NCBI RefSeq assembly: GCF_001874145.1
Contig: NZ_MPCX01000012.1
Location: 1 to 64,000 of the forward strand
Source of the DNA: Lacinutrix sp. MedPE-SW
GTDB lineage: Bacteria; Bacteroidota; Bacteroidia; Flavobacteriales; Flavobacteriaceae
Direction: 5' to 3'
DNA: 64,000 nucleotides
Of this stretch, positions 3,909 to 28,381 are shown piece after piece (within the stretch, counting starts at the first letter, position 1; each line of letters begins with the position of its first letter). A program made the position numbers and the translations under genes. The notes under the pieces are model-generated. The model saw only the letters and a list, made by a program, of their open reading frames with translations, searched no databases and was not told the DNA's origin.

Positions 3909-3951
3909 TGATATTAGTCATTTTTGCAAACGCCTTAAGATTGTAAATTGC
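3909..3951 (+). promoter_or_regulatory. Crp/Fnr-type promoter, site 1
   Basis: Palindrome TGATATTAGTCA at 3909-3920, then TAAATTGC at 3944-3951 as a weak -7 box. Centre-to-centre distance is 33 bp. It drives the stress protein gene at 3968. Confidence 0.6.
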
Positions 3952-3967
3952 TTAAAATTTTTAAGCG

Positions 3968-4792
3968 ATGAAAAACATATTACTACCTACAGATTTTTCT
4001 GAAAACTCTAAAAATGCTATAGATTACGCATTGGCTTTATACAAAAACGAATCTTGTAATTTTTATGTTTTAAATGTACAGAAACAATCTGATTTTTTAT
4101 TAGATGATTTAATGGCAAGTACTGCAAATTCTACTTTGCACAATGATATAATTGAGGACAATAAAAGTGAGTTATATACTTTTATAGACCGTTTAAAAAT
4201 GGAGAATGATTCTCTCAACTTCTATCCGCTTTTTGATTTTGATAGCCTTACTAATGCCATAAACCAAACGGTTGTTGCTAACGGTATTGACTTAATTGTA
4301 ATGGGTACAAATGGCGCTACTAGCGCTAAAGAAGTTATTTTTGGAAGTAATACACTTAATACTATTAGAAAAGTAAACTGCCCAATTATTATTGTACCAG
4401 AAGATTTTAAATTTAACGGTTTAAATTCTATTTTATTTTCAACAGAAGACTGTAAGTCTATAAACAAAGAAAAGGCTCTACCTCTTTTTAAAATTTTAGA
4501 TTTATACGGTGCTAAATTAAGTGCTTTAAATATTGATGAAAACCATAGTAATACTAGTATTGATGCGAAACTTTGTTTAGAACAATTGTTTAACTCTTAT
4601 AGTTTTAACTTTTATAATGTTTCTCTTGTACCAAGTGCAATGGCTATTAGCTCGTGTATACAATTACAAAACCACGATTTGCATACTTTATTTATTGAAC
4701 CAAAGTCTATTATAGAGCGATTATTTCAAGGTTCTAATACAAATGAGATAACCTATAGAACACGAATTCCTATTTTAATTTTACGTAAATAA
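3968..4792 (+). CDS. Universal stress protein, tandem domains
   Basis: A 274-residue cytoplasmic protein with two UspA-like halves. The first half opens with ILLPTDFSENSKNAIDYAL. It carries the ATP-binding pattern GxxG, nine residues, G(S/T): GTNG then GSN, about residues 114-130. The second half is degenerate. Usp proteins bind ATP or AMP and act in energy or oxygen stress; the specific role is unknown. It is monocistronic, follows site 1, and runs towards the minus-strand gene ending at 4,806. Confidence 0.9.
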   Translation: MKNILLPTDFSENSKNAIDYALALYKNESCNFYVLNVQKQSDFLLDDLMASTANSTLHNDIIEDNKSELYTFIDRLKMENDSLNFYPLFDFDSLTNAINQTVVANGIDLIVMGTNGATSAKEVIFGSNTLNTIRKVNCPIIIVPEDFKFNGLNSILFSTEDCKSINKEKALPLFKILDLYGAKLSALNIDENHSNTSIDAKLCLEQLFNSYSFNFYNVSLVPSAMAISSCIQLQNHDLHTLFIEPKSIIERLFQGSNTNEITYRTRIPILILRK

Positions 4793-4805
4793 TATTTGTG
4801 TAATA

Positions 4806-5435
4806 TTAAAATATAAGCAGTTTATTTTCTTTTAAATTATAGTATAATGTTTTAGTATAATCACTAATATTTTTTTGAGTGTTTTTAGTTTTTGCAACCT
4901 CTATATTTGCTTGCCACAATAACTCCCGTTCTTTATCTGGACAAATACAATACAATGTCGTTTGTGTTGAATAAACTATATAAACTTCTGGATCTTTATT
5001 TTGACAAATATTTTGATTTTTGTAATAGTAATCTTCAAAGGTTTTAAATTTATCTTCAATATTTTTATAGTAATCACCAAATGCTACTTTTTCTTGTTTA
5101 CCTGTAACCTTTGTTAAAATAATAGCATCGAAACCTGCGGTTAATAATTGTGTTTCTATTGCGTTTAACTCTTCTATTGTTTTTGCATTATCTACAAAAG
5201 ATTGCTCGAAAAAATCTATGCTTTTTACTGCAATTACATTATTGTTTTCTAACATTTTAGATACTTTTTTTTCGAATTCACGTCTTAAATCTACATCTGC
5301 CGTCATGCCTATAACCAAAATTTTATTTGTGTAAAATGTCTCGGTTTCTGGGTTTTTAAATGATTTTACTGTTTTACTTGTTGAGCAATTAAAACACATA
5401 CTCAACAATAAAATTAATAGTACTAAATTTTTCAT
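4806..5435 (-). CDS. Lipoprotein of unknown function
   Basis: A 209-residue predicted lipoprotein with signal peptide [17 protein letters not shown] and lipobox Cys at about 17. The N-terminal half (KILVIGMTADVDLRREFE, GFDAIILTKVTG) looks like an alpha/beta fold found in Bacteroidota lipoproteins that sit at the inner face of the outer membrane. I cannot name the family. It is second in a two-gene unit, 10 bases after the helical protein at 5446-5880, and so falls under site 2. Confidence 0.75.
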   Translation of the reverse strand: MKNLVLLILLLSMCFNCSTSKTVKSFKNPETETFYTNKILVIGMTADVDLRREFEKKVSKMLENNNVIAVKSIDFFEQSFVDNAKTIEELNAIETQLLTAGFDAIILTKVTGKQEKVAFGDYYKNIEDKFKTFEDYYYKNQNICQNKDPEVYIVYSTQTTLYCICPDKERELLWQANIEVAKTKNTQKNISDYTKTLYYNLKENKLLIF

Positions 5436-5445
5436 ATCAATATCT

Positions 5446-5880
5446 TTAAGCTATTTTTTTATTTTCTTTTAAAATTTGTTTTACATTTTTATAAATCAAT
5501 TTTTTTAAACTTTTAAACAAAGTGTTTGTTGCAACAGCTTTAAACATAAGTTTATAATGTTCTTCTTTATAAACACTTAATTCGTTTGGTGTTTCTATAT
5601 CATCTAATAATACTTGAAGGTTGTTTTGATGAGTTTGCAGATTTAAAATTAGCACGTTGAAATTTTCCTCTAAACCTAGAATACTAACATACTTCTTTGC
5701 ATTTTCCTTATGGCATTTATTTAAAACGCTTTCTAATGCATATGCTTTTACTAGAGTTTTTAAGAATTTTAACTCGTCGTTTTTAAATTTCATTTCTAAA
5801 ACACAAGCTTTTGTTTCTTCATGTAATTCTTCTGGTTTTTTATATTTTATAAATTTTAAGTGTGATTTAACTGTTTCCAT
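5446..5880 (-). CDS. Helical protein, paralogue of 20245-20691
   Basis: A 144-residue, Lys/Glu-rich, all-helical soluble protein. It shares with the gene at 20245-20691 the pattern ExxHExxKxxxxExKFxxDE near residues 17-38 and a basic C-terminal helix. Both copies lie in operons with stress proteins and both are preceded by a TGAYN4RTCA promoter. No catalytic motif is visible. A role as a small helical scaffold or sensor is a guess; I do not recognise the family. Confidence 0.75.
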   Translation of the reverse strand: METVKSHLKFIKYKKPEELHEETKACVLEMKFKNDELKFLKTLVKAYALESVLNKCHKENAKKYVSILGLEENFNVLILNLQTHQNNLQVLLDDIETPNELSVYKEEHYKLMFKAVATNTLFKSLKKLIYKNVKQILKENKKIA

Positions 5881-5907
5881 ATCTAATAATTAGTTTAATA
5901 ATTAATA

Positions 5908-5950
5908 TAAATTTACTGTTAACACACGCTTATTAAAATGATAAAAGTCA
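5908..5950 (-). promoter_or_regulatory. Crp/Fnr-type promoter, site 2
   Basis: On the minus strand the palindrome is TGACTTTTATCA (5939-5950) and the -7 box TAAATTTA (5908-5915), 33 bp apart. It serves the genes at 5880 to 4806. Confidence 0.65.
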
Positions 5951-5967: not shown

Positions 5968-7338
5968 TCAAACTTCTAAGCGAATAACTTCATTTAGCTT
6001 TGGCACAACTACTTGCCATTGGTAAGCGCTTTCTATTTTCTGTTTTAAAACTTGTATGGGCAAAGCTTCACCATGTACTAAAAAGGTTTTTGTTGGCTTA
6101 TTTTCTACAGCAGATAACCAGGCTAATAATTCTGCTTGATCTGCATGAGCTGATAAACTTTCTATATGTTCAACTTTTGCTTTTACCTCATGCCATTTAC
6201 CAAAAAATTTTACACTTTTTTCTCCGTCTAATAATTGTCTACCACGAGTGCCTTGCGCTTGATAACCAACCAATAATATGGTTGTATTAACATTACCTAT
6301 TAATTGTTTTAGGTATGTTAATACACGTCCACCAGTTACCATACCACTTCCTGCAATTACTATTTTTGGCCTTGGGTCGTCAATAGTTTTCCAGGTATCA
6401 CCATACGATGTAATAATTGTCATTCTATTTTGCATCGCTTTAAATTCGTGAAGTGGTATTTTATGCCATTTAGGAAACCGCTCGAAAAGAGAGAGCACAT
6501 TATTTCCCATAGGACTATCTATAAATATTGGAATATTAGGTATTTTATTTTTTTTATAAAGCTTCCAAAGTATATACATTAAAGTCTGTAATCGCTCTAC
6601 TGCAAAAGATGGTATTATTAAATTACCTCTATTATTTATAGTTTGGTATACCAGAGAAACAAGTTTTTTTGAAACACTCTCACTTGAGTGCAACGTATCA
6701 CCATAGGTGCTTTCTAAAAAAAGATAATCTGCTTTTTGCGGTTTATTTGGTGATTTTAATAAAAAATCATGGGTTCTACCAACATCTCCAGAAAACACAA
6801 AAACCTTACTATTTATAACTATTTCTATAAATGTTGCTCCTAAAATATGCCCATTGTAATTAAATTTATATTTTATGCTATTATTTACAAAATACCATTG
6901 GTCGCATGGTGACGAAACCATTTGCTTAATAGTTGTTTCTGCATCTTTTACTGTATAAAAAGGCTTTGCTGGATTATGTTGTGTAAACTCTTCTTTATTG
7001 GCTCTTTCGGCATCTTCTTCATTTATTTTACCACTATCTCTTAAAATTATTTTGGCAATTTCTAATGTTGGTTCGGTACTAATAATTTTACCCTTAAAAC
7101 CTTGTTTTACAATTCTAGGCAAATAACCAACATGATCTAAATGCCCATGTGTTAGCAAAATAACATCTATGCTTTCTACATTAAAAGGTAAGTTTTCCCA
7201 GTTTAATGCCCTTAATTCTTTTTGACCTTGAAACATACCACAATCTATCATGATATTATGGTTAGCGGTTTCTATTATATATTTTGAGCCTGTTACCGTA
7301 CCTGAAGCTCCTAAAAAATGAACATTTACGCTTTTCAT
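5968..7338 (-). CDS. Beta-CASP metallo-beta-lactamase hydrolase (RNase-like)
   Basis: A 456-residue protein of the CPSF73-like/RNase J-like class. The N-terminal metallo-beta-lactamase domain has HLGASGTVTGS and the metal motif LTHGHLDHVG. A beta-CASP insert follows with SFAVERLQTL and SGMVTGGRVL. The RMMBL tail is SLSAHADQAELLAWL ... FLVHGE. Such proteins cleave RNA in bacteria and archaea, so an RNA-processing role is likely. Its ATG overlaps the stop of the ATP-cone nuclease by 4 bases, so the two are translationally coupled. It is the last gene of the stress operon starting at 9931. Confidence 0.85.
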   Translation of the reverse strand: MKSVNVHFLGASGTVTGSKYIIETANHNIMIDCGMFQGQKELRALNWENLPFNVESIDVILLTHGHLDHVGYLPRIVKQGFKGKIISTEPTLEIAKIILRDSGKINEEDAERANKEEFTQHNPAKPFYTVKDAETTIKQMVSSPCDQWYFVNNSIKYKFNYNGHILGATFIEIVINSKVFVFSGDVGRTHDFLLKSPNKPQKADYLFLESTYGDTLHSSESVSKKLVSLVYQTINNRGNLIIPSFAVERLQTLMYILWKLYKKNKIPNIPIFIDSPMGNNVLSLFERFPKWHKIPLHEFKAMQNRMTIITSYGDTWKTIDDPRPKIVIAGSGMVTGGRVLTYLKQLIGNVNTTILLVGYQAQGTRGRQLLDGEKSVKFFGKWHEVKAKVEHIESLSAHADQAELLAWLSAVENKPTKTFLVHGEALPIQVLKQKIESAYQWQVVVPKLNEVIRLEV

Positions 7339-8183
7339 TTTTGTATGTATTTAGAGCAAAGTTCACTAATTTCGGTAATAATTTTTTGCTTTCTTTTTTC
7401 TGAAACTCCTAGATGATCTAAGTAAAACTTATCTTTAATAAGTTGTCTGCACAACACAACATCTCTACTTAGCAAAAACTGTTTTTCTCTACTAGTTAAT
7501 AATGTAGAAACTGTGATTGGGTATAATGCTAAACGATCTATTTTATCTTTAAGCGCATTGTTTTCTGGATAATCCCAACTTAACAATTGCAAACCAATAC
7601 ATTTACCATAAGCAATAGCATCTTTAGTAAATTGCGTATTTGTAACTACCCAACCTTGATTTGGGCAATTGGGTTTTCCTTTATAATTTGCAATAATATC
7701 TTGGTATCTTGACTGTATATACAAAGGTATTTTTACATCACATTTGTTTTTTCTTTCACTATGAAATTTACATTCTGCTATTATATTTAAGTTATTTTTT
7801 TTAGCTATTACATCGACTTCATGTGTTACACATTTACCTTGTAAAATTATACCAACTTTAATATCGCTATATCCTGAGTATTCTAGAATAGATGCTATAA
7901 ACCTTTCAAAAGGAAAACCTGTTGGACCTAGCTCGTAAATGGCTTTTTTTAATTTATATTTTGAAGCATATATATTCTTGCTTTTTTTTAATAAAGCAAA
8001 TGCTCTATTGTAAATTTCTTTTGTTGAAATACCTTGGTATAATTCACCTTTAACACTATTTATTATTTGAGAAATTGTAGCATTATCTGCACCACTTTTA
8101 TGCAAAGAACTCTTTAATTTTTCAGTTGAAAATTTAACGTGTTCTCCCGAAGCTTTTATAATATCTATATTATTATTTTCCAT
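7335..8183 (-). CDS. ATP-cone / Mrr-like nuclease fusion
   Basis: A 282-residue protein. Residues 5-90 form an ATP-cone: IIKASGEHVKFSTEKLKSSL with a helical remainder. This nucleotide-sensing module is known from NrdR and ribonucleotide reductase. Residues 95-215 resemble Mrr-type PD-(D/E)xK endonucleases, with GPTGFPFERFIASILEYSGY, then EVDVIAKKNN and IAECKFH supplying Asp and ExK. The fusion suggests a nuclease gated by ATP or dATP level (inference). It lies 40 bases after a stress protein gene and overlaps the beta-CASP hydrolase gene, so the two nucleases are probably made together. Confidence 0.8.
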   Translation of the reverse strand: MENNNIDIIKASGEHVKFSTEKLKSSLHKSGADNATISQIINSVKGELYQGISTKEIYNRAFALLKKSKNIYASKYKLKKAIYELGPTGFPFERFIASILEYSGYSDIKVGIILQGKCVTHEVDVIAKKNNLNIIAECKFHSERKNKCDVKIPLYIQSRYQDIIANYKGKPNCPNQGWVVTNTQFTKDAIAYGKCIGLQLLSWDYPENNALKDKIDRLALYPITVSTLLTSREKQFLLSRDVVLCRQLIKDKFYLDHLGVSEKRKQKIITEISELCSKYIQK

Positions 8184-8223: not shown

Positions 8224-9081
8224 TTACATTTTTTCCATTTTTTCTTTAGATGGTAAAACTAAAAATGGTACTTGTGTATGGTATACCATTTTGTTTATTA
8301 CTGGCCTAAATAATAGGTTTTCTAACATGGTGTGTTTATTATGTATCATTACTAGAAAATCAATTTTATTTTTATGTTGAAATGCTTCAATTATTTGAAC
8401 TAAATCTTCGTCTTTTTCAATATGAAATTGATGCGTATTGTCTATAAAAAAGATATCTAAAAATACTTTTGCTCTTTTTTGCTTTTCTTCTAATGGACTA
8501 CTATAATGTGCATTTAAAAAATGTAATTTAGAGCTGTGTAAATTGCATATATCTCTAAGTAACTCTAAATAAATATTAGATTTTTCAAGTTTATAATCTG
8601 TAGGGAACAAAACTTCTTTAGGTCGCTTAAAGTTATAGCTTTCAGGCACTGCTAGTACTGGGCATTTTAATTTTTTAATAGCATGCATAGTATGTGTACC
8701 AATAAAAACTTCTTTTGCTCCAGTTGCGCCTTTTGTACCCATTACCACTAAATCTATAGCTTCATTTTTTATTAGGCTTTTCATTTCTGGAATTAGCATA
8801 TTATAAGCAGATACAGCAATAAATTTATGCTTTGTATTATTAAATTGTTTTTGTAGTTTTTGCTCTAATTCTTTTAAATTTAAGTTTACTGCATTTTGCT
8901 CTATCTCGAAAATATTAGCTGTAACATTAGTATCTATTACGCCATCAAAATTATGTGCAGCTGGTGTGAATGTATGTAACAAGTAAAACTCACAAGTAAC
9001 TTTTTGAAATAATTTTATAGCGTACGTTATAGCATTAAAAGCATTATCTGAAAAATCTGTTGGTAATAGTATACGTTTCAT
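8224..9081 (-). CDS. Universal stress protein, tandem domains
   Basis: A 285-residue protein with two Usp halves. The first starts ILLPTDFSDNAFNAITYAI and has the nucleotide motif GTKG, nine residues, GTH (about residues 118-132). The second half starts EVLFPTDYKLEKSNIYLEL and lacks the motif. It is the second gene in the unit that begins at 9931, with 4 bases between the two stress genes. Close spacing and a single upstream palindrome indicate co-transcription down to 5968. Confidence 0.9.
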   Translation of the reverse strand: MKRILLPTDFSDNAFNAITYAIKLFQKVTCEFYLLHTFTPAAHNFDGVIDTNVTANIFEIEQNAVNLNLKELEQKLQKQFNNTKHKFIAVSAYNMLIPEMKSLIKNEAIDLVVMGTKGATGAKEVFIGTHTMHAIKKLKCPVLAVPESYNFKRPKEVLFPTDYKLEKSNIYLELLRDICNLHSSKLHFLNAHYSSPLEEKQKRAKVFLDIFFIDNTHQFHIEKDEDLVQIIEAFQHKNKIDFLVMIHNKHTMLENLLFRPVINKMVYHTQVPFLVLPSKEKMEKM

Positions 9082-9085
9082 GTTG

Positions 9086-9931
9086 TTAGCGGTTTAAATT
9101 TTGAAAAACTAAAAATGGAATTTTAATAGTTAATCCTATTTTTTCTATTGTAGAATGATATAACAAGTTTTCTAAATACGAATGCCTTTGGTTTACCATA
9201 ACAAGTAAATCTATAGCTTGTTCGTTAATGGTTTTATTAATAGTTTCTGTTACATTATCATCATGAACTTGCAAGAAGTTTACTTTGTTACTTGTAAAAG
9301 ATTCTTGCAAAAATTGTTGATTATCTTCTTGCCTATGCGTTATTTTTTTAGACTTTGAAACATAAAGTACATCTATATTAGATACAAAACTTACCGCAAG
9401 ACTACTTAGTAATTTTAATTCTCTACGCTTATACGGTATTAAATAATCTGTAGGAAATAAAATATTTTCTGGGTGTAAATCATGAAATGTATTTGGCACA
9501 ACAAGAACAGGGCACTGTGAATATTTCATCACTTTTATAGCATTACTACCAAAGGTTAGAAATGGGTTATTTGTTTGCCCTTTTGTACCCATTACAATGA
9601 CATCTATATTGTGCTCGTTTACAAACTCATCTATGACATCTATTAAGCTACCAAATTGTGATTTGTAATTATATTTATGCCTTGGGTTTGGAGACAACTC
9701 AAGCATTTCTTCAATTTCATTTTTAAGTTTTTTATCTACGTTATGCTTAACTCTATTTTTATAGTCTTGAAAAACATCTCGAGGTTTATTTGTTGTATTC
9801 TCATAAACCTCATCTGCATACGTATGTAAAATTGTTATTTCACTTTTATCGTATTTAAAAAGTTCTAGAGCGTACTTTACAGCGTTTATTGCTGTAGCAG
9901 AAAAATCTGTTGGTATAAGAATCTTTTTCAT
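9086..9931 (-). CDS. Universal stress protein, tandem domains
   Basis: A 281-residue tandem Usp. An in-frame Met exists at 9958, but the -7 box TAGCTTTG occupies 9956-9963, so transcription should begin inside that extension. The MKKILIPTDFS start at 9931 is therefore preferred and matches its paralogues. The motif GTKG, nine residues, GSN marks nucleotide binding in the first half. It is the first gene of a four-gene unit: Usp, Usp, ATP-cone nuclease, beta-CASP hydrolase. Confidence 0.9.
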   Translation of the reverse strand: MKKILIPTDFSATAINAVKYALELFKYDKSEITILHTYADEVYENTTNKPRDVFQDYKNRVKHNVDKKLKNEIEEMLELSPNPRHKYNYKSQFGSLIDVIDEFVNEHNIDVIVMGTKGQTNNPFLTFGSNAIKVMKYSQCPVLVVPNTFHDLHPENILFPTDYLIPYKRRELKLLSSLAVSFVSNIDVLYVSKSKKITHRQEDNQQFLQESFTSNKVNFLQVHDDNVTETINKTINEQAIDLLVMVNQRHSYLENLLYHSTIEKIGLTIKIPFLVFQNLNR

Positions 9932-9955
9932 AGTATTAAAGTAATTGTTATACTT

Positions 9956-9998
9956 CAAAGCTATGACAGTTGCTAGTAAACTAAAATGACAATTATCA
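9956..9998 (-). promoter_or_regulatory. Crp/Fnr-type promoter, site 3
   Basis: Minus strand: palindrome TGATAATTGTCA (9987-9998), perfect -7 box TAGCTTTG (9956-9963), 33 bp centre to centre. It controls the operon 9931 to 5968 and decides the start of its first gene. Confidence 0.75.
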
Positions 9999-10013: not shown

Positions 10014-10850
10014 TTACTCGTGTAAAACTAAAAATGGTACTTGTGTATGGTAGCTCATTTTTACAACTGTTGGTTTAAATAATAAGGTTTCGAAAAAATT
10101 TAAATTTTTTGCAATAATTGCTACCATATCTATTTTCATAGAACTTATAAACGCTTGTAAACCTTGCTGAAAATCTATATGGTTTACTCTATGAAAACTA
10201 CTTGCGGTATTTTTGAAATAATCTTTTAAATAGCTTCTATTTTTTTCTTGAAATAGTGTTAAGGCAAGTTTAGGGTTTACAATTCTAATTACCTTGATGC
10301 TAGAGTTATGTAAAGCACTAATTTTAGATAGTGTATTTAAAACTTTATTTTTATAGATAAAATTATAGTCTGTTGGAAACGCTATATTTACAGGTATTGT
10401 AAACTTTGCCAAAGTTGGTATTATTAAAACTGGACATTTAATTTTGGTTATTATTTGTTGCGCATGTTGACCTACTATTTTATTTTTATTTGCTGATAAG
10501 CCTTGTGTACCACAAACAATTAAGTCTATATTATACTTAGTCACAAAATGCTTTATACCTTGAGTAAAATTAGACTCTAATGTTTCGGTTTTTATTTTTG
10601 AAGCCTCAACATTTGAAACTTTTAGCATTGCTTCCTTCTTTTTATTTAAAGCTACTTCTACTCTATGTGTTTCTAATATTTCGCCAGAAATATAATGACT
10701 TAGAGTTTCGAAAGCTGGAGGTAAAATTTCTGGATGCTCTATATGGACTAAAATAAAATTAACTTTATAATTTTTAAAATACTCTAGTGCGTAAACCGTC
10801 GCATTCCATGCGTTGTTTGAAAAGTCTGTTGGTATTAATACATTTTTCAT
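10014..10850 (-). CDS. Universal stress protein with altered nucleotide motif
   Basis: A 278-residue tandem Usp starting MKNVLIPTDFSNNAWNATVY. The usual GxxG, nine residues, G(S/T) pattern reads GTQG then GQH, so the phosphate-contacting Ser/Thr is replaced by Gln. This copy may not bind ATP as the others do. The second half begins NIAFPTDYNFIYKNKVL. The gene is alone between site 4 upstream and site 3 downstream, and is a separate transcript. Confidence 0.88.
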   Translation of the reverse strand: MKNVLIPTDFSNNAWNATVYALEYFKNYKVNFILVHIEHPEILPPAFETLSHYISGEILETHRVEVALNKKKEAMLKVSNVEASKIKTETLESNFTQGIKHFVTKYNIDLIVCGTQGLSANKNKIVGQHAQQIITKIKCPVLIIPTLAKFTIPVNIAFPTDYNFIYKNKVLNTLSKISALHNSSIKVIRIVNPKLALTLFQEKNRSYLKDYFKNTASSFHRVNHIDFQQGLQAFISSMKIDMVAIIAKNLNFFETLLFKPTVVKMSYHTQVPFLVLHE

Positions 10851-10889: not shown

Positions 10890-10932
10890 CAAAAGTATTA
10901 AGTTGATGGTACTTAAATTATGACAAATATCA
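10890..10932 (-). promoter_or_regulatory. Crp/Fnr-type promoter, site 4
   Basis: Minus strand: palindrome TGATATTTGTCA (10921-10932), perfect -7 box TACTTTTG (10890-10897), 33 bp apart. It drives the stress protein at 10850. Confidence 0.75.
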
Positions 10933-10941: not shown

Positions 10942-11997
10942 TTAATCTATAGCTTCTAAGGCTTCTAAATCTAAAATTTTTATGTTTCGACCTTCAATTT
11001 CTATAAGGTTATTTTTTTTAAATCCAGAAAGTGTTCTTATTAAACTCTCTGTTGCAATACCGGCAACGCTTGCTAAATCGTAACGCGAAATTTTTATAGC
11101 TTCGTCTGGTTTTTTATCAAGTATTTTTGCAAACTGAAGTATGGTTTGCGCTGTTTTTTTTCTTACAGAACTATAAGCCATTTGTAGTAATTGTTGTTTT
11201 ATGTTAGATATATTATCTGTTAAAACATTCATTAATTCTATAGACACATTTTGACTTTTACCTAAAACATCTTTTAAATTTTGTTTAGATATGCTTACTA
11301 AAACCACATTTTCTACTGCTGTTGCAGATTCTAAGTAAGGCATATTATCTACAAAAGATGTAAAACCTAAAAAATCGTCTGGTTTATGTAAAGCCGTTAT
11401 TAGCTCTTTTCCACTTTGGTCCATTTTATGGCTTTTTACAATACCTTTTAAAATTAAATATACATTGTTTGAGTGTGCGCCTTCTGTATATATACTTTCT
11501 CCTTTAGAAAATGCTTGCTCAACTCCATTATCATCGAAAAAGTTTTTTAACTCGTTAAGGCTTCTTAGATTGCCTTCTTCGTTATCTTCTTTTTTTTTTG
11601 AATTTTGAGCGATAGCTTGCGATAATATTTGTGATTTTGCCAACCTACTTTCTACGGCACTTAAAAGCTCTTCTTCCTCAAAAGGTTTTGTAAGATAATC
11701 GTCTGCACCTAAATCCATTCCTTTTCTAATTTCTTTATGTTCTGTTTTTGCAGATAGAAAAATAAAAGGAATATGCATGGTTTTTTCGTTTGATGACAAA
11801 GCCTCTAGTACACCATAGCCATCTACCTCTGGCATCATTATATCACAAATAATAAGATTAGGCTTGTGTTTTAAAGCTTGTTCTATACCTATTTTACCGT
11901 TTGAAGCTGTTACTATATTATAGTCGCTTAGTTCTAACAGTTCGGCTGTATTTTCTCTTAATGCTAAATCGTCTTCGATTAATAATATAGTGTACAT
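10942..11997 (-). CDS. Response regulator fused to Crp/Fnr DNA-binding module
   Basis: A 351-residue transcription factor. Residues 1-120 are a receiver domain with acidic pocket Asp9/Asp10, phospho-acceptor Asp52, Ser82 and Lys104. Residues about 150-250 form a cNMP-binding fold (ILKGIVKSHKMDQSGKELI). Residues about 280-350 are an HTH_Crp domain whose recognition helix TESLIRTL keeps the Glu and Arg spacing (ExxxR) that reads TGA half-sites in Fnr and Crp. It lies 11 bases after the kinase gene at 12009, in one operon. Its position among 14 TGAYN4RTCA sites makes it the leading candidate for their activator (inference). Confidence 0.9.
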   Translation of the reverse strand: MYTILLIEDDLALRENTAELLELSDYNIVTASNGKIGIEQALKHKPNLIICDIMMPEVDGYGVLEALSSNEKTMHIPFIFLSAKTEHKEIRKGMDLGADDYLTKPFEEEELLSAVESRLAKSQILSQAIAQNSKKKEDNEEGNLRSLNELKNFFDDNGVEQAFSKGESIYTEGAHSNNVYLILKGIVKSHKMDQSGKELITALHKPDDFLGFTSFVDNMPYLESATAVENVVLVSISKQNLKDVLGKSQNVSIELMNVLTDNISNIKQQLLQMAYSSVRKKTAQTILQFAKILDKKPDEAIKISRYDLASVAGIATESLIRTLSGFKKNNLIEIEGRNIKILDLEALEAID

Positions 11998-12008: not shown

Positions 12009-13511
12009 TTATTCTTGTGGTATTATTACGGTAAATACGCTACCTTTTTCTTCGCTACTTATAAAGTTAATGGTACCTCCTAGGTTTTCTAAGTGGCTCT
12101 TTACAATATTTAAACCTATTCCTGTTCCTTGCGTTAGTAAAGCATTTTCTGCTCTAAAATACCTATTAAATAAAAACTTTTGCTCTTTTTTAGGTATACC
12201 TATACCTTGATCTTTTACGGTGATTTTTAATCCAGAATTATTAAATTCTGCGCTTACATCAATGGTTGTATATTCTGGAGAATATTTAATAGCATTGTTT
12301 ATTAGGTTTGTAAGTATTAGTTCTAATATTTTTTCATCAAAATTTAGCACAATATTTTCTATACCATCTGGATAACTAATATTTTGCCCTTCTTTTAATA
12401 GCATGTTTGCATCGTAAATAACTTCATTTATAACTTTGCTTAAAGAAAATTTAGAAAACTTATAATTTACTTTACCACTTTCTAAACGTTCAATTGATAA
12501 AAAATCGTTTATAATGTTATTTAGGTATTTTACCTTACTTTGAATTGTTTTTATGTGTTTATCTCTTTTTTCTTGCTGTTCTGTATTAGTGTATTTACCA
12601 ATTAATGTAGAAGAGGTTAAAATACCACTTAAAGGTGTTTTAAATTCGTGAGATACTAATGATAAAAATTTGGTTTTAAGCTCATTTAGTTCTTTTTCTT
12701 TATGTAAGGCTTCTTGTAGTCTTTGCGTTCTTTCTTCTACTGTTTTTTCTAATTTTGCTGTATAATTTACACGTTCTGTAATGTCTAAAATAATAGCTAC
12801 GAGTGTTTCACCTTCACTTGAAAAAGAGCGTTGTAAATGGACTTCTACAGGATAAGTAGTTCCGTTTTTTCTTTCGTGTACGGTAATAAAACTAATTTTT
12901 GCTTCTGTACCATTTAATAAGGGTTTAATACTCTCTCTAAATTGTTCTTCAGTATATTCTGGTTTAATATCTATAGGAGTCATTTTTTTTAATTCTTCTA
13001 AACTGTATCCTATATTATTTTGTGCACCAGTATTAACATTTAAAAAATTAAGATGCTTTGCATCGAAAATAAAAATCTCGTTTAAAGATTCGTGAAAAAT
13101 ATTTGCCCAATGTTTTAATTCTTCTTCGGCTTTTTTTCTAACTGTAATGTCTATAACCAATGCCATTACATAATTGTTGCCATAAATATTAAAAGGGTTT
13201 AAACCTGCTTCTACAGGAAATGTTGTACCATCTTTTCTTAGTCCATACAAGTCTCTACCATGGCCCATTTTTCGTTTATCGCTATGCTTTAAAAAAGAAT
13301 CGACATGGCTCGAGTGGTTATGATGGTATTTTTGCGGAATAAGGGTTTCTAAAGGTTTTCCAATTAATTCATCTTCATTATAACCAAATAAAACATTAGA
13401 TGCTTGATTTGTAGCAACTATAATTTGTTTGGTATTTACTACTACAATGCCTTCTGAAACTGCATTTGATAATAACTTTAAAACCTTATTGGTTTTTTCA
13501 AATATTTCCAT
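12009..13511 (-). CDS. Soluble PAS-PAS sensor histidine kinase
   Basis: A 500-residue kinase without membrane segments. PAS1 spans about 8-125 and PAS2 about 130-250. A coiled coil (YTAKLEKTVEERTQRLQEAL) leads to the DHp domain with His288 in SLVSHEFKTPL, then the ATPase domain with NNAIKYS, DQGIGIP and GTGIGLNIV. Met at 13511 is preferred over the in-frame Met at 13559, because the palindrome of site 5 lies over the upstream start. Cytoplasmic PAS domains suggest sensing of oxygen, redox or a small molecule; the ligand is not readable. It probably phosphorylates the regulator encoded next. Confidence 0.88.
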   Translation of the reverse strand: MEIFEKTNKVLKLLSNAVSEGIVVVNTKQIIVATNQASNVLFGYNEDELIGKPLETLIPQKYHHNHSSHVDSFLKHSDKRKMGHGRDLYGLRKDGTTFPVEAGLNPFNIYGNNYVMALVIDITVRKKAEEELKHWANIFHESLNEIFIFDAKHLNFLNVNTGAQNNIGYSLEELKKMTPIDIKPEYTEEQFRESIKPLLNGTEAKISFITVHERKNGTTYPVEVHLQRSFSSEGETLVAIILDITERVNYTAKLEKTVEERTQRLQEALHKEKELNELKTKFLSLVSHEFKTPLSGILTSSTLIGKYTNTEQQEKRDKHIKTIQSKVKYLNNIINDFLSIERLESGKVNYKFSKFSLSKVINEVIYDANMLLKEGQNISYPDGIENIVLNFDEKILELILTNLINNAIKYSPEYTTIDVSAEFNNSGLKITVKDQGIGIPKKEQKFLFNRYFRAENALLTQGTGIGLNIVKSHLENLGGTINFISSEEKGSVFTVIIPQE

Positions 13512-13514: not shown

Positions 13515-13589
13515 CAAAGTTAGTGAAATTTGATTTTGTTTAAGACTGATATTTATCATTTTATAACTCTACTAATGCATTTAGTTTTA
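13515..13589. promoter_or_regulatory. Divergent Crp/Fnr-type promoter, site 5
   Basis: Palindrome TGATATTTATCA at 13547-13558. On the plus strand the -7 box TAGTTTTA (13582-13589) is 33 bp away and serves the gene at 13609. On the minus strand TAACTTTG (13515-13522) is 34 bp away and would place the start of transcription at or within a few bases of the kinase ATG. Confidence 0.6.
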
Positions 13590-13608: not shown

Positions 13609-14025
13609 ATGACAAATACCGAAAAACCTGATATTATTTTTTATCAAAGCCTAGGTGAATTGTTTTATGCAGTTGCCGCGGCAGATAGAACTGTTAAGCC
13701 AGAAGAATATGATGCGCTATTAAAAATGGTTATGGACGAATGGAAAGTTTATGAAGATGTAAAGGATTACTATGATGAATCTGTAGGCTACCAAATGGAA
13801 TTTGTATTTAATTGGTTTGATTACGAACATATGGATGCATACGATTGTTTTAAAAACTTTAGTGCGTATGCAAAATCTCATGCCAACTTATTTACAACAG
13901 AAAAAAAACAACTTATACTAAAAACGGCTTATAAAATAGCCAATGCGTTTTCCGGAAAAAACAAAAGCGAACTTATTATACTAAAAAAACTAGAGCTGTT
14001 ATTTAAAAACATTACTCAAGTATGA
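13609..14025 (+). CDS. TerB-like helical protein
   Basis: A 138-residue soluble, all-helical protein. The start ELFYAVAAADRTVKPEEYDALLKMV resembles the acidic metal-binding helix pair of TerB-like domains. It is short and has no other domain. Known TerB-fold proteins act in membrane stress or as helper modules; a specific role here is not shown. It is divergent from the kinase-regulator operon and shares site 5 with it. Its TGA stop codon is the first half-site of site 6. Confidence 0.7.
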   Translation: MTNTEKPDIIFYQSLGELFYAVAAADRTVKPEEYDALLKMVMDEWKVYEDVKDYYDESVGYQMEFVFNWFDYEHMDAYDCFKNFSAYAKSHANLFTTEKKQLILKTAYKIANAFSGKNKSELIILKKLELLFKNITQV

Positions 14026-14065
14026 CAAATGTCATTTTATATTTTTTAGTTCCAAAATAATTTTG
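14023..14065 (+). promoter_or_regulatory. Crp/Fnr-type promoter, site 6
   Basis: Palindrome TGACAAATGTCA (14023-14034), whose first three bases are the stop codon of the preceding gene. A perfect -7 box TAATTTTG (14058-14065) lies 33 bp away. It drives the gene at 14089. Confidence 0.75.
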
Positions 14066-14432: not shown

Positions 14433-14475
14433 TGACTTTTATCATTTTTTCAACTTTAACTTTACTCTATTTTTA
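14433..14475 (+). promoter_or_regulatory. Crp/Fnr-type promoter, site 7
   Basis: Palindrome TGACTTTTATCA (14433-14444) and -7 box TATTTTTA (14468-14475), 33 bp apart. It drives the gene run 14500 to 17661. Confidence 0.65.
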
Positions 14476-17687: not shown

Positions 17688-17730
17688 TGACTTTTATCAT
17701 TTTTTAAACCTAGTATTGGTAGTAATTTTA
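17688..17730 (+). promoter_or_regulatory. Crp/Fnr-type promoter, site 8
   Basis: Palindrome TGACTTTTATCA (17688-17699) and -7 box TAATTTTA (17723-17730), 33 bp apart. It drives 17754 to 19195. Confidence 0.65.
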
Positions 17731-20716: not shown

Positions 20717-21571
20717 TTAATTTTTTAAATCATGCATAACCATGATTGGTACATTTACTTGAAACGTAATATCTTTTACTAGTGGTTGAGTTAAAATACT
20801 ACCAAAAAACGCATGCTTTTTATTTATAAAAGCAACCATATCGCTTGCTCTACTTTCAACAAAAATGCTTATTGCTGTTTCAATATTAGTATTTTGTAAT
20901 TCATGGATTGTAAATTTTACGTCTTCAAAGCACTCTTCTAATAGCAACTTATTTTCTTCTTGGTTGTTATCTAACTTATTGCTTGTAGCAACTCGCAGTA
21001 CAGCAATATTTGCATTAAATTTTTTTGCCAAGTCTGTTAAATAGACCATTTCGCGTCTTTTAAAATTGGTATCGTAATTAGTAGGAAAAACAATTTCTTT
21101 TGGCATATTTAACTTTACATTTTCTGGCACAACAATAACTGGGCAATTTCTAACTTTTTCCATTACATAAATTGCGGTACTACCATACACAACTTTTCGC
21201 TCGTTAGATTTTCCTTTACTACCCATTACAATAATGTCTATATCTTTTTTATCTACAATTGTTTTTATTGCTTCTAAAGTGTTATTGAATTGGGAGATGG
21301 TTTTAAATGTGTGTTTTGTATTTGTTTTATCTTTTAGTATTAAACCATCTATAATTTTTTGTAAACCAATTTGAGAATTCTCTTTAGCTATTTCATAAAC
21401 ACCACTTCCTGGTTCTAGATGTATTAAACTATCTACTAAATGTCCTGTGGCATGAAATACATTTAACAAATAAAATTCACAGGCTTCATCTTTATAAAGT
21501 TCTAATGCATATTGAATAGCTTTACTTGCATTAGCAGAAAAGTCTGTTGGTAATAATATTTTACGTTTCAT
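20717..21571 (-). CDS. Universal stress protein, tandem domains
   Basis: A 284-residue tandem Usp beginning ILLPTDFSANASKAIQYAL. The motif GSKG, nine residues, GST indicates ATP binding in the first half. It heads a three-gene unit with the helical protein and the D-2-hydroxyacid dehydrogenase. Confidence 0.9.
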   Translation of the reverse strand: MKRKILLPTDFSANASKAIQYALELYKDEACEFYLLNVFHATGHLVDSLIHLEPGSGVYEIAKENSQIGLQKIIDGLILKDKTNTKHTFKTISQFNNTLEAIKTIVDKKDIDIIVMGSKGKSNERKVVYGSTAIYVMEKVRNCPVIVVPENVKLNMPKEIVFPTNYDTNFKRREMVYLTDLAKKFNANIAVLRVATSNKLDNNQEENKLLLEECFEDVKFTIHELQNTNIETAISIFVESRASDMVAFINKKHAFFGSILTQPLVKDITFQVNVPIMVMHDLKN

Positions 21572-21592: not shown

Positions 21593-21635
21593 TAAATGTA
21601 AGCGTTGTTTTAGAGGTTTAAAATGATATTAATCA
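21593..21635 (-). promoter_or_regulatory. Crp/Fnr-type promoter, site 9
   Basis: Minus strand: palindrome TGATTAATATCA (21624-21635), -7 box TACATTTA (21593-21600), 33 bp apart. It drives 21571 to 19214. Confidence 0.65.
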
Positions 21636-21637: not shown

Positions 21638-22465
21638 TTATTGAGGTATTACCAAAAAGGGAATTTTAATATGAAAACCAATTTTTTTAATTATGGGTTC
21701 TCTTAGTATTTTTTCAAAATAACTATGTTTATATTTTACCATTGTAAGCATATCGATTTCATAGTCTTCTACAAAACTTGAAATCTCTAATGCAACTTTT
21801 ACATAGCTTAATGCCCAATGAAAACTACTTTTACTTGTTTGTAAATGTTGTTTTAATAAAGCTTTATTATCTTTTTGTTTTTGTGATAATTTAGAGTTTT
21901 CTGCGACGTATAACACTTGAATTTTAGCACCAAATAAATTTGCTATTTTTACTATAGGTTTTAATTCTTTACTAGTATACGTTCGAGAATAATCTGTAGG
22001 AAATGCAATACTCTTAATGCTTTTATACGTGCAGTTTTCTGGGATGACTAAAACAGGACAAGTATTAATTGTATTTATAATTTTTACCGCATTACTACCC
22101 AAAACCAACTCCTTTATTCCTGTTGCACCTTTGGTACCCATAACAATTAAATCTATTGTATTTGCTTGTACAGCAAGTTCTATGGCACTAAACAAACTTT
22201 CTGAACTAAGGATTGTTTTAACTTGGTGTTTTGTGGGATTTAGCGATGCTTTTATTTTTTCTTTAAACTCTTGAAGTTGATCTTTATCTTTTTTATGAAT
22301 AGTTTGTACTAGTTTTTTAGACATACTTAAAGTAGAAGTCAACTTAAGTTCTGATGCATTTAATAAATAAAATACACATACTTCATTTTTATATAATTTA
22401 AGTACATAATTAATTGCAGTCCAAGAGTTTTTAGAAAAATCTGTAGGTAATAATATATTTTTCAT
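21638..22465 (-). CDS. Universal stress protein, tandem domains
   Basis: A 275-residue tandem Usp (ILLPTDFSKNSWTAINYVL) with GTKG, nine residues, GSN. The second half starts SIAFPTDYSRTYTSKEL. It is a single-gene unit. Its stop lies 3 bases from the palindrome of site 9, so the downstream promoter is packed against its end. Confidence 0.9.
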   Translation of the reverse strand: MKNILLPTDFSKNSWTAINYVLKLYKNEVCVFYLLNASELKLTSTLSMSKKLVQTIHKKDKDQLQEFKEKIKASLNPTKHQVKTILSSESLFSAIELAVQANTIDLIVMGTKGATGIKELVLGSNAVKIINTINTCPVLVIPENCTYKSIKSIAFPTDYSRTYTSKELKPIVKIANLFGAKIQVLYVAENSKLSQKQKDNKALLKQHLQTSKSSFHWALSYVKVALEISSFVEDYEIDMLTMVKYKHSYFEKILREPIIKKIGFHIKIPFLVIPQ

Positions 22466-22487: not shown

Positions 22488-22530
22488 TAAAATTACTGGG
22501 AAGCGTATTATTAAACTATGACTAAAATCA
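22488..22530 (-). promoter_or_regulatory. Crp/Fnr-type promoter, site 10
   Basis: Minus strand: palindrome TGATTTTAGTCA (22519-22530), -7 box TAATTTTA (22488-22495), 33 bp apart. It drives 22465 to 21638. Confidence 0.65.
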
Positions 22531-22597: not shown

Positions 22598-23434
22598 TTA
22601 TATTTTAAATGTAACTATAGGCGTTTCGCTATGGTTAACAATAGATTCTCCAATTCTTTCTGAAAAGAAATGAGCTAAACCTCTTCTTCCATGTGTTGGT
22701 AATGCTATTACATCTGCCTGAAAATCATTTGCAAATGAAAACAAGCCACGCTCTAAAGTATAATCGTTATAATATACAACCTCATCTTCTTTACCGCTTA
22801 ACTCGTTAATTCCAGAATTTAAGAAAAACTTAAATGCTTTTTGTTTCATTTCTTGAGTGCTAATAAATCTATCTGGTAAATTTATATACACAATTTGAAA
22901 GTTTGCATCTATAGATTTGAAAAAGTGATATGCTTCTTTAAAAGGTTTTACAAAGTCTAAATTAAAATCGCAAGCAAAAACCACTTTTTTCATTTTAAAA
23001 TCTTGATCTTTATTTTTTACTACTAAAACTGGCGTTGTAGATGTACGCACAACTTTCTCTGTATTAGAGCCTACAAACACTTCTTTAACACCTGTAGCGC
23101 CATGAGATCCCATAACAATTAAACTTGCGTTAAATTGTTTTGCTATATTATCTATCTCGTTAAAGTGAATGTAATTTTGTACAGTAGTTTCAATTGTAAT
23201 ACCTTTTAAATACGACTTATCTAAAAAATCACTAAAACGTTTTTCTGCTAATTTTAAATAATAGATGCCTTCAAACATTTCTTGAGATTCATCTTTAGTT
23301 AATATTGCTTCAGATAAGCCTAACATGTGTAAGATTACAAGTTCACTATTATATTTTTTTGCTAATGTTGCTGCGGTTTGTAATGCGTATTCTGAGTGCT
23401 CAGAAAAATCAACTGGTACTAATATTTTTTTCAT
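22598..23434 (-). CDS. Universal stress protein, tandem domains
   Basis: A 278-residue tandem Usp that differs from the others. It starts ILVPVDFSEHSEYALQTAATL, closer to canonical UspA, and has GSHG, nine residues, GSN. Its second half also keeps a nucleotide-like loop (PTHGRRGL ... ERIGESI). It follows the hibernation factor gene by 10 bases and ends before the strong terminator. Confidence 0.9.
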   Translation of the reverse strand: MKKILVPVDFSEHSEYALQTAATLAKKYNSELVILHMLGLSEAILTKDESQEMFEGIYYLKLAEKRFSDFLDKSYLKGITIETTVQNYIHFNEIDNIAKQFNASLIVMGSHGATGVKEVFVGSNTEKVVRTSTTPVLVVKNKDQDFKMKKVVFACDFNLDFVKPFKEAYHFFKSIDANFQIVYINLPDRFISTQEMKQKAFKFFLNSGINELSGKEDEVVYYNDYTLERGLFSFANDFQADVIALPTHGRRGLAHFFSERIGESIVNHSETPIVTFKI

Positions 23435-23764: not shown

Positions 23765-23807
23765 CAAAAGTAGCCCATAGATTAACTTTAAAATATGACA
23801 AATGTCA
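23765..23807 (-). promoter_or_regulatory. Crp/Fnr-type promoter, site 11
   Basis: Minus strand: palindrome TGACATTTGTCA (23796-23807), perfect -7 box TACTTTTG (23765-23772), 33 bp apart. It drives the hibernation factor operon. Confidence 0.75.
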
Positions 23808-24079: not shown

Positions 24080-24122
24080 CTAATTTAGATCACATATTTA
24101 ATTAAAAATATGACATTTATCA
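24080..24122 (-). promoter_or_regulatory. Crp/Fnr-type promoter, site 12
   Basis: Palindrome (minus strand TGATAAATGTCA) at 24111-24122. In the minus direction TAAATTAG (24080-24087) is 33 bp away and one base off TAnnTTTG. In the plus direction no box lies at 33 bp, but TAACTTTA at 24181-24188 is 68 bp away, so the site might also act at a distance on the patatin gene. Confidence 0.5.
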
Positions 24123-26731: not shown

Positions 26732-26734
26732 AAT

Positions 26735-27517
26735 TTAAACTTCAAAAAATATATCTGTTATAAATACAGCTATAAAATCTATAATAAATAGTAGCATTGA
26801 TGTATAAACAACTGCAGCGTTTGATGCTTCTCCAACACCTACTGTTCCTTTTGCACAATTGTATCCTTTGTAACAACCTACCAGACCAATAGCAAACCCA
26901 AAATAGAAAGATTTTACTGTTGCAGGAATTATATCGCTAAATTGAAGAGCGTCAAATACTTTATTAAAATAGAGTAAAAAAGAAACGTCTCCTTTTAAGT
27001 ATTCAATAATTGCAGAACCTAATAAAGCTACTGCATCTCCAATTATTATTAATAAAGGCAACATTAATGTTGTAGCTAAAATTCTTGTTACTACTAAGTA
27101 TTTAAAAGGGTTAGTACCCGAAACCTCCATAGCATCAATTTGCTCTGTTACTTTCATAGAGCCCAATTCTGCACCAATACCAGAACCAATTCTTCCTGCA
27201 CAAATTAAAGCTATAATTACAGGCCCTATTTCTCTAACAATAGATATGCTTACCATTGATGGCATCCAGGATTCTGCACCAAACTCCATTAATGTAGGTC
27301 TAGATTGTAAAGTAAAAACTAGCCCTAAAATAAAACCGGTTACGCTAACCAATAAAATAGATTTGTTTCCTATATTATAGCATTGCCTAATAAGTTCTTT
27401 CCATTCAAATGGTTTTGTAAACACTTCTTTAAAAAAACGAATTGCAAAAAAAGAGATATCGCCTATTTGATTAAAAAAGGAAAACATTTTGTCTTGTATG
27501 GTTTTTGTAGCTATCAC
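26735..27517 (-). CDS. MlaE-family ABC permease
   Basis: A 260-residue permease of the MlaE type with about five membrane segments. It has LVSVTGFILGLVFTLQSRP, VREIGPVIIALICAGRIGSGIGAELG and MKVTEQIDAMEVSGTNPFKYLVVTR. The start at 27517 is GTG; the ATG at 27487 is a good alternative. It is first in the lipid transport operon, under site 13. Confidence 0.92.
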   Translation of the reverse strand: MIATKTIQDKMFSFFNQIGDISFFAIRFFKEVFTKPFEWKELIRQCYNIGNKSILLVSVTGFILGLVFTLQSRPTLMEFGAESWMPSMVSISIVREIGPVIIALICAGRIGSGIGAELGSMKVTEQIDAMEVSGTNPFKYLVVTRILATTLMLPLLIIIGDAVALLGSAIIEYLKGDVSFLLYFNKVFDALQFSDIIPATVKSFYFGFAIGLVGCYKGYNCAKGTVGVGEASNAAVVYTSMLLFIIDFIAVFITDIFFEV

Positions 27518-27536
27518 AATTTTTCGATTGAAAAGT

Positions 27537-27579
27537 CAAATATATAGGTCGATTAAGCATTTAAAAATGATATAAATCA
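27537..27579 (-). promoter_or_regulatory. Crp/Fnr-type promoter, site 13
   Basis: Minus strand: palindrome TGATTTATATCA (27568-27579), perfect -7 box TATATTTG (27537-27544), 33 bp apart. It drives the Mla-type operon. Confidence 0.75.
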
Positions 27580-27595
27580 TTACCACAAATAAGTT

Positions 27596-28321
27596 TTAAT
27601 TAAAAAACAAACTTGTAATACCTATAATTAAAATGAGTATTAATACTAAAAAACGAAATTGTTCTTGAGAGATTTTATTAAGAATAAGCTTACCAAGCCA
27701 TGTACCTAAAAGACTAATAACAACTAAAATAGGAATAAGATATAGTAAGTCTTTTCGCATATAACCGTTAAAATAATAAACAATCGTTCTACTAAAATCT
27801 ACACCTAAATCAATTACTGCCGAAGTAGCTATAAATTTGTTTTTATCCATTTTAAATGCAGAAAGAGTAATACCTCTAATCGCTCCTCCTGTTCCTAAAA
27901 CTCCTGCACTTAAACCTGAAAGTACTCCACCTGTTATTGTATTTGTAAGTGTTTCTTTTACTTTTAAGTTTTTAAAGACTAAAAAAACAAGACTCAATAG
28001 TATTAAAAAAACACCTAAAATATAGGTAAGCAATCTTGGGTTTATATATTTACTAAAAAAAGCACCGATAATAACAAAAATTACAGCAGGCAAACCCAAT
28101 TGTAGTATTACTTTTTTATCTAACCCTTTTCTAAACATTGCAATTTTACTAAGGTTACTCGCTAAATGAAATAAAGCTGTAATACCTAAAACAGATTGAA
28201 AATCTAAAAAAAAGTTTGCAATAGGAACAAAAAAAACTGAAGAACCGAAACCTCCAACAGTTCCTAAAATTTCTGCAATTAAAGTAAGTATTATAAAAAG
28301 TGGTAAATATCTTGAGAGCAT
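27596..28321 (-). CDS. TauE/SafE-type membrane transporter
   Basis: A 241-residue membrane protein with about seven to eight helices. It carries the repeated glycine-rich pattern of the family (GTVGGFGSSVFFVPI in half one, GGVLSGLSAGVLGTGGAIRG in half two). Members export or import sulfite, sulfonates or sulfoacetate; the substrate here is unknown. It is a single-gene unit under site 14. Confidence 0.85.
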   Translation of the reverse strand: MLSRYLPLFIILTLIAEILGTVGGFGSSVFFVPIANFFLDFQSVLGITALFHLASNLSKIAMFRKGLDKKVILQLGLPAVIFVIIGAFFSKYINPRLLTYILGVFLILLSLVFLVFKNLKVKETLTNTITGGVLSGLSAGVLGTGGAIRGITLSAFKMDKNKFIATSAVIDLGVDFSRTIVYYFNGYMRKDLLYLIPILVVISLLGTWLGKLILNKISQEQFRFLVLILILIIGITSLFFN

Positions 28322-28338
28322 AATTTTTAATTATACTT

Positions 28339-28381
28339 CAAAAATAGATGTAGATTTTAGTTTAGAATATGATATTTATCA
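28339..28381 (-). promoter_or_regulatory. Crp/Fnr-type promoter, site 14
   Basis: Minus strand: palindrome TGATAAATATCA (28370-28381), perfect -7 box TATTTTTG (28339-28346), 33 bp apart. It is the last such site seen before the alginate genes. Confidence 0.75.

Follow-up and report, generated by a model that had tools for sequence, protein, structure and literature searches.

In Proteobacteria, class II promoters of the FNR/ANR/FixK type share a core motif, TGAY-N4-RTCA. The stretch analysed here, henceforth the window, comprises positions 1 to 64,000 of contig NZ_MPCX01000012.1 of Lacinutrix sp. MedPE-SW, a member of the Flavobacteriaceae. Palindromes of this form cluster between positions 3,909 and 28,381, most of them paired with a promoter box at a fixed distance, and the same block encodes a fusion of a receiver domain to an FNR-type module together with a histidine kinase. 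As in the proteobacterial promoters, the core is predicted to lie around -41.5 and low-oxygen genes are found among those served. However, the first base of the half-site is here mostly C or A rather than T, the -7 box has the Bacteroidota form TAnnTTTR, and in the recognition helix Ile stands in place of the Ser of FNR (this genome's Fnr compared with an FNR chain, and the fusion likewise compared with Fnr).

The DosR (DevR) regulator of mycobacteria has an output domain of the NarL/FixJ type, recognizes a different DNA motif, and reportedly includes a hibernation factor among its targets. The output domain found here is HTH_Crp_2 and hence not of the NarL/FixJ type. The likeness lies elsewhere: DosS/DosR is also a two-component system placed over several universal stress proteins (USPs) (for example PMC2914252). 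The FixL-FixJ-FixK system of rhizobia and relatives (PMC7888657) resembles the one described here in its haem-PAS-like kinase, its FNR/FixK-type DNA reader and its cbb3 oxidase target. The differences are that one protein here combines a FixJ-like receiver with a FixK-like DNA-binding module, so that no intermediate fixK promoter is needed, and that the targets centre on stress proteins. Altogether, the system works like FixLJ-FixK and DosR, falls outside the definition of either, and is a variant of Crp/Fnr regulation.

Members of the superfamily are found in other Bacteroidota such as Porphyromonas gingivalis (PMC12040651), and no regulon with this promoter geometry appeared in the literature listings searched. 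The search as a whole retrieved no account of this regulon or of a 33-bp spacing, nor of any receiver-Crp regulator from Bacteroidota, a weak absence given that most subscription papers lay outside its scope. The same three topics were absent by term search from the available portions of PMC8510549, PMC12531629, PMC4999443 and PMC4558063. Little of transcription activation in Bacteroidota has been charted. Here one testable rule (palindrome, 33 bp, -7 box) allows regulons for low oxygen and stress to be predicted in genomes across the flavobacteria, and it also indicates the regulator. An earlier note on this DNA described palindromes and boxes and missed the block's own probable regulator and its kinase; this likely regulator is what is new here.

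A palindrome and a -7 box 33 bp apart

The palindrome-box architecture is real. The fourteen TGAYN4RTCA palindromes listed in the earlier note are all present, and the window contains sixteen in total, compared with a mean of 2.77 and a maximum of 8 in 100 dinucleotide shuffles. The two additional palindromes, at 44572 and 55130, are intragenic (open reading frames (ORFs) 43998-45023 and 54771-55556). The 24.5-kb block holds 14 palindromes versus 0.8 expected under a uniform spread over the genome. The claim that every palindrome has a box 33 bp away proved a slight overstatement: an exact TAnnTTTR facing a gene start is found at 12 of the 14 sites (ten mismatch-free boxes had been counted before), while the boxes of 3909 and 24111 are imperfect and that of 24111 faces away from its nearest gene. 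At other offsets from 10 to 40, the 14 sites gave one match each at 12, 24 and 38 and none elsewhere. The window has 30% G+C and TAnnTTTR occurs in it with a frequency of 0.0037 per position and strand; the chance of 12 boxes in 14 sites at a preset offset is about 1e-22 to 1e-24.

A distance of 33 bp between centres corresponds to 23 bases between palindrome and box (N23). Across the genome, 14 exact pairs show this spacing (5 forward, 9 reverse), 12 of them in the block and 2 on contig C1, compared with 1 for a reversed control pattern. Each of the other spacings yielded 0-2 pairs; within 20-24 bases, one pair was found at 22 and two at 24. We also examined related loci, defined as the best 80 of 546 relatives found with the regulator at 10942-11997 (1.57 Mb; their titles name flavobacterial genera, or Flavobacteriaceae, Flavobacteriales or Bacteroidetes only). 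These loci contain 492 palindromes (68 with the reversed control). Boxes at N23 number 289, whereas any other offset between 0 and 52 gives 0-12. Hence the distribution of distances, which the earlier note had proposed to inspect, is not flat in this genome nor in its relatives. The box at N23 is perfect for 280 of the 492 palindromes and has one mismatch for another 110, while perfect boxes at six other offsets (N13, 18, 22, 24, 28 and 33) number 1-7. At least one full site is present in 78 of the 80 loci, and five scrambled palindromes of the same make-up produced a single full site among 434 palindromes. In 30 genomes of the same family, hand sums gave 476 exact sites versus 22 for the reversed control. 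The fourteen sites once described as a regulon of that size therefore stand, but the code extends further, as exact pairs precede cbb3 and hemN genes on another contig and in relatives.

Published start sites of Flavobacterium psychrophilum place the TAnnTTTG box between -12 and -5 (PMC9723704, in the part used here). With a spacing of 33 bp, transcription would then begin five bases past the end of the box, and the palindrome would be centred on -41.5, which is the location of the activator in a class II Crp/Fnr promoter, here obtained through start-site data of a relative. The class II reading proposed earlier is thus well supported, as the spacing in the 80 related loci, the box position in F. 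psychrophilum (same part of PMC9723704) and the existence of two Crp/Fnr-family proteins with similar recognition helices all point in its direction. The distance from box end to start codon has a median of 23 nt and quartiles of 19-26 (285 of 299 sites, those with a downstream ORF starting at most 300 nt from the box), and the predicted leaders are about 19 nt long. A logo made from 302 distinct sites of the 80 loci, the window and locus L102 (one of 303 was excluded because of a short flank) reads [C/A]TGAY-WWWW-RTCA-T(97%)-W-T/G-T, with little signal afterwards until TAnnTTTR. Two features of this logo, namely the T that follows the proximal half and a T-rich segment from about -35 to -30, would be consistent with a degenerate -33 element lying under a class II activator.

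One locus of another genome (L276, G109:C1:3595000-3605500) shows five exact sites in about 7 kb, one pair of them back to back. A gene behind these sites looks NorC-like by eye, and denitrification genes may share the code.

The receiver-FNR fusion and its probable PAS kinase

The probable regulator is a response regulator of 351 aa encoded at 10942..11997 on the reverse strand, in which Pfam recognizes a receiver (residues 4-116), a cNMP-binding-like domain (161-246) and HTH_Crp_2 (283-350). PF00027 and PF13545 score above cut-off, which places the fusion in the Crp/Fnr superfamily, and all 50 fold matches listed for it are Crp-family structures. Conservation was examined in an alignment of 80 sequences that includes the window (L083 was excluded because of a stop). 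The residues that define a response regulator are retained: D9, D10 and D52 in 79 of 80 (with one gap), S82 in 79 (the other has T), and K104 in all. E317, I320 and R321 are also kept in 80 of 80. The fusion is not FNR proper, as the N-terminal cysteines for a 4Fe-4S cluster are absent and the NCBIfam Fnr model gives 70 bits against a cut-off of 228; the FixK equivalog, with 66 bits, is likewise below its cut-off of 300. The only Cys of the protein is C51, in the receiver. Since the receiver is intact and holds the only Cys, phosphorylation is the likely switch. AlphaFold models of the fusion (pTM 0.40) and the kinase (pTM 0.38) added little beyond domain boundaries. In a tree of 46 Crp parts, 17 fusions form one group and 8 Fnr proteins another (100/99).

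Two fusion loci on separate contigs are found in each of Lutibacter flavus and Lutibacter citreus (L070 and L097; L081 and L101), and genome G138 gives two fusion matches. In four loci (L026, L027, L036 and L089) the fusion has hemN and/or cbb3 genes close by; in L089 a ccoI match follows its end after about 1 kb, so that it sits where fnr does in this genome.

The probable cognate kinase is a PAS-PAS histidine kinase of 500 aa (Pfam) encoded at 12009..13511 on the reverse strand. The ORF list has its start at 13559; however, the promoter site and the alignment of relatives favour the ATG at 13511. A kinase match stands directly upstream of the fusion in 78 of the 80 related loci. The first PAS domain of the window kinase gave 17 matches in the PDB, of which the top seven are FixL and 13 are PAS domains of FixL, DosP or EcDos (1s66, labelled 'yddU', and 1v9y were counted as EcDos on our assumption), while the second PAS domain gave no PDB match (E up to 0.01). 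The FixL haem-His position aligns with H66 of the window kinase and the distal Arg is aligned too; we take this His to be the proximal haem ligand and this Arg to be the distal residue. A His is found at the ligand position in 69 of 79 kinase sequences, and three sequences lack a PAS match.

The kinase-fusion system probably reports lack of oxygen, as suggested indirectly by the likeness of the first PAS domain to the haem oxygen sensor FixL, by its gene neighbourhood and by the predicted sites. In 15 of the 80 loci, cco genes are found no further than 10 kb from the fusion (L073 was left out of this count for want of a cco match above the display cut-off), and exact sites precede ccoS and hemN. 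Under oxygen limitation, cbb3 oxidase and haem-biosynthesis enzymes increase in F. psychrophilum (PMC9723704, in the part used here).

Which regulator reads the sites

This genome contains four HTH_Crp_2 matches, including the fusion and a stand-alone Fnr-like protein (C1:456421-457128), henceforth Fnr, whose gene adjoins that of a CcoI-like ATPase near ccoNO and hemN (gene names read from translations). The best PDB match of Fnr is 2gau, presumably a P. gingivalis protein. An E-x-x-I-R recognition helix is present in the fusion (ATESLIRTL) and in Fnr (AKEACIRTL) and absent from the other two proteins; ATESCIRLL is the helix of Fnr in two further genomes, G143 and G181. Because the helix of Fnr is similar to that of the fusion, both proteins probably read one code. 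Of 196 genomes belonging to the order, 21 gave a match to the fusion (E to 1e-40) and 87 a match to Fnr (E to 1e-30). When exact sites were counted in the 30 same-family genomes, the 13 with both regulators had a median of 17 (one of them, G072, has a weak Fnr match with 32% identity), the three with the fusion only had 8, 10 and 16, and the 14 with Fnr only had a median of 9. The difference between the 13 and the 14 has a p of 0.0003, which is optimistic as the genomes are related.

Four genomes permit a closer comparison. G102 and G167 carry the fusion and have neither an Fnr match at 1e-30 nor a CcoN match; they nonetheless show 10 and 16 exact sites (reversed control: 1 and 0), and USPs form the largest class downstream, with 8 of 23 distinct genes. 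G143 and G181 are the converse, with Fnr and without a fusion match; exact sites number 23 and 16 in them, and USPs are encoded by 2 of the 34 distinct genes that lie downstream. Their targets include ccoS, hemN, a copper nitrite reductase, a NarK-type transporter (below cut-off), the Fe-S repair protein RIC and CBS proteins. The difference in USP share has a Fisher p of 0.01, a significance inflated by kinship. These counts cover genes at 37 of 39 sites of G143 and G181 and loci for 22 of 26 sites of G102 and G167; they omit repeats with identical first 40 residues and rows lacking an ORF (3 of 37 and 2 of 33), and include rows flagged as inside an ORF (3 and 2). The contrast supports the view that the fusion would be the reader of the stress block.

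We regard it as likely that the block is governed by class II activation, with the fusion as main activator under a FixL-like kinase, Fnr sharing the code, and a low-oxygen survival programme as output. From the motif, its spacing and conservation, the domain content and the co-location of the genes we infer the following course of events. A Crp/Fnr-family dimer would bind [A/C]TGAYWWWWRTCAT centred at -41.5 and activate rather than repress, touching RNA polymerase over the degenerate -33 region, with the -7 box TAnnTTTR exactly 33 bp downstream. In the block, the DNA-binding protein would most likely be the fusion (10942-11997), phosphorylated by the adjacent kinase (12009-13511), which may sense low oxygen, or a linked redox or energy cue, through haem in its FixL-like first PAS domain. 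Universal stress proteins, ribosome hibernation, nucleases, thiol genes and lipid-transport genes would then be raised as a survival programme. The code would probably be common to both regulators, and labour might be divided so that Fnr attends mainly to respiration and the fusion mainly to the stress block. A bolder proposal is that flavobacteria possess a collapsed FixL-FixJ-FixK: a haem-PAS kinase would directly phosphorylate the receiver-FNR fusion, a code common with Fnr would join the phosphorelay to a direct oxygen sensor, and a DosR-like dormancy programme would thus exist in marine bacteria. We advance it tentatively, as we doubt it slightly more than we believe it. If the fusion were indeed a phosphorylation-driven FNR, the block would offer a natural test of one promoter code under two regulators with different inputs, and also a test of the independent origin of dormancy-type USP regulons in marine bacteria and mycobacteria.

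Several observations weigh against assigning the block to an oxygen-responsive kinase and the fusion. Many PAS domains resembling the first one of the kinase have a proximal His; this residue is missing from 10 of the 79 kinase sequences, and His and distal Arg occur together in 50 of 79. The NCBIfam FixL equivalog gives 99 bits, with a cut-off of 850. The N23 peak is also seen in the fusion-less G143 and G181 (23 of 68 and 16 of 56 hits, compared with 42 of 71 in G109, which has fusion and Fnr); geometry is therefore not proof of a role of the fusion, and the idea that it might be unique to fusion-bearing genomes was discarded. The comparison of the four genomes is small and has flaws: only four of the nine HTH_Crp_2 matches of G102 and G167 were aligned in the helix comparison (E--IR was found in the two fusions alone), and the 'Fnr-only' G181 has a second E--IR helix. 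A third genome without Fnr match, G039, was dropped as a clean fusion-only case on account of its cbb3 genes and another E--IR helix. A motif difference between cco/hemN and stress sites was sought and rejected, as the base preference at -1 is equal in both classes (13 C:7 A vs 121 C:61 A, p = 1; fusion-bearing loci, with the window and L102 among them). Taken by itself, the palindrome is rarer in the genome than the reversed control pattern (102 vs 197), so that what is unusual is confined to its local clustering and its pairing with the box. Besides, regulons of Crp/Fnr regulators with similar motifs are hard to tell apart by computation alone, according to the part of PMC8510549 used here.

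One alternative is that Fnr (C1:456421-457128) works all sites on its own, the fusion acting elsewhere or only tuning Fnr. We consider this unlikely, since G102 and G167 have no match to Fnr or CcoN and still show 10 and 16 sites, with USPs as the commonest class; sites are more numerous where the fusion is present (median 17 vs 9, with the optimistic p given above); and 12 of the 14 exact sites of this genome are in the neighbourhood of the fusion. It would nevertheless account for the exact sites of G143 (23) and G181 (16), with the same peak and a similar helix, for the one USP gene with a site in each of these genomes, and for the likeness of cco/hemN and stress sites. The A/C ratio at -1 does differ between G143/G181 and the fusion-bearing loci (p 3e-6, from counts back-converted from rounded percentages), which may be a lineage effect. 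Another alternative is that the palindromes are operators of a repressor overlapping the promoter. A dimer at -41.5 touches the -33 region as well, and the sign of regulation is not given by sequence, but the constant spacing fits activation, whereas variable distances should be no hindrance to a repressor. Furthermore, the -33 element is weak (T-richness immediately downstream of the palindrome is its only trace), and in F. psychrophilum low oxygen raises the cbb3 and haem-biosynthesis genes (PMC9723704, same part), so that we deem repression very improbable. As for chance clustering in AT-rich sequence, 30% G+C does make TAnnTTTR frequent and the palindrome by itself is not enriched genome-wide; however, the window probability (~1e-22), the offset counts (289 vs 0-12 in the 80 loci), the scrambled palindromes and the boxes at other offsets rule it out, and its likelihood is negligible.

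Sites and genes of the block

The gene classes proposed before (stress, hibernation, nuclease, redox, lipid transport) were borne out by Pfam, as the targets in the window are seven universal stress proteins, a hibernation factor, beta-CASP and ATP-cone/Mrr nucleases, thioredoxin-DeoC-PNP, MlaEFD, a TauE-type permease and small unknowns. One universal stress protein (PF00582) is encoded on the forward strand at 3968..4792 and six on the reverse strand, at 8224-9081, 9086-9958, 10014-10850, 20717-21571, 21638-22465 and 22598-23434. Also on the reverse strand are the genes for a ribosome hibernation factor of the S30AE family (PF02482; 23445..23750), a beta-CASP metallo-nuclease (5968-7338) and an ATP-cone/Mrr-type nuclease (7335-8183), the latter two assigned by Pfam, with an ATP-cone match slightly below cut-off. 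Downstream genes in the 80 loci, the window and L102 (n=285) include 123 for stress proteins, 28 for a 138-aa protein, 23 for the hibernation factor, 13 ccoS and 7 hemN.

On the reverse strand, exact boxes accompany the palindromes at 5939 (5908..5950, box TAAATTTA, before a 144-aa gene at 5446-5880), 10921 (10890..10932, TACTTTTG, before USP gene 10014), 22519 (22488..22530, TAATTTTA, before USP gene 21638), 27568 (27537..27579, TATATTTG, before the MlaE-MlaF-MlaD lipid transport genes 27517-24987) and 28370 (28339..28381, TATTTTTG, before a TauE/SafE-type permease gene at 27596). The palindrome at 9987 (9956..9998, TAGCTTTG) precedes USP gene 9086, followed by USP gene 8224, the ATP-cone/Mrr nuclease gene 7335 and the beta-CASP nuclease gene 5968, which by gene order would share an operon. 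That at 21624 (21593..21635, TACATTTA) precedes USP gene 20717, a 148-aa gene at 20245 and a 2-hydroxyacid dehydrogenase gene at 19214, and that at 23796 (23765..23807, TACTTTTG) precedes the genes for the hibernation factor (23445) and a USP (22598). The palindrome at 24111 has a box with one mismatch, TAAATTAG (24080..24122, reverse strand), directed at the hibernation-factor gene some 330 bp off, and no box at 33 bp towards its nearest gene, which encodes a patatin (24206, forward strand). It might be a second upstream site of the hibernation-factor gene, or a site for an unseen transcript.

On the forward strand, exact boxes are found with the palindromes at 14023 (14023..14065, TAATTTTG, before a 94-aa gene at 14089), 14433 (14433..14475, TATTTTTA, before 14500, of 293 aa, and probably also the DUF998, thioredoxin, DeoC and PNP genes to 17661, judging by the apparent extent of the operon) and 17688 (17688..17730, TAATTTTA, before 17754, of 170 aa, a pyridoxamine-oxidase-like gene at 18274 and a DinB-like gene at 18740). 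In the leftmost site (3909..3951), the palindrome TGATATTAGTCA and the imperfect box TAAATTGC (3944-3951, two mismatches) are 33 bp apart before USP gene 3968. This box matches TAnnTTGY of the F. psychrophilum promoter motif SM5 (PMC9723704, in part). In the 80 related loci, TAnnTTGY is weakly raised at N23 (6 at N23, 6 at N24 and 0-5 at other offsets from 5 to 49).

The palindrome at 13547 serves both flanks. On the forward strand (13547..13589), the exact box TAGTTTTA lies at 33 bp before the gene of the 138-aa protein (13609-14025); read in reverse (13515..13558), the palindrome has a box TAACTTTG at 34 bp, which faces the kinase gene (ATG at 13511). A full site is present between the kinase gene and the divergent 138-aa gene in 29 of the 38 loci with that layout. 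The 138-aa protein, which shares this divergent promoter with the kinase, has matches in 41 of the 80 related loci and lacks matches in Pfam (E to 0.001) and NCBIfam (E to 0.01). Its gene is preceded by a full site in 28 sources, and the protein is a candidate for a new core member.

Other features of the window include a Bacteroid-trp leader RNA (RF01692) at 51465-51584 on the forward strand, the sole Rfam match above gathering score. Near the left edge, a short ORF for an IS110-type transposase of 140 aa (574-996, reverse strand) is perhaps a remnant. A LacI-type regulator encoded at 29278-29787 on the reverse strand, beside genes for a KDPG aldolase and a PfkB sugar kinase, has 169 aa and is thus shorter than usual LacI proteins.

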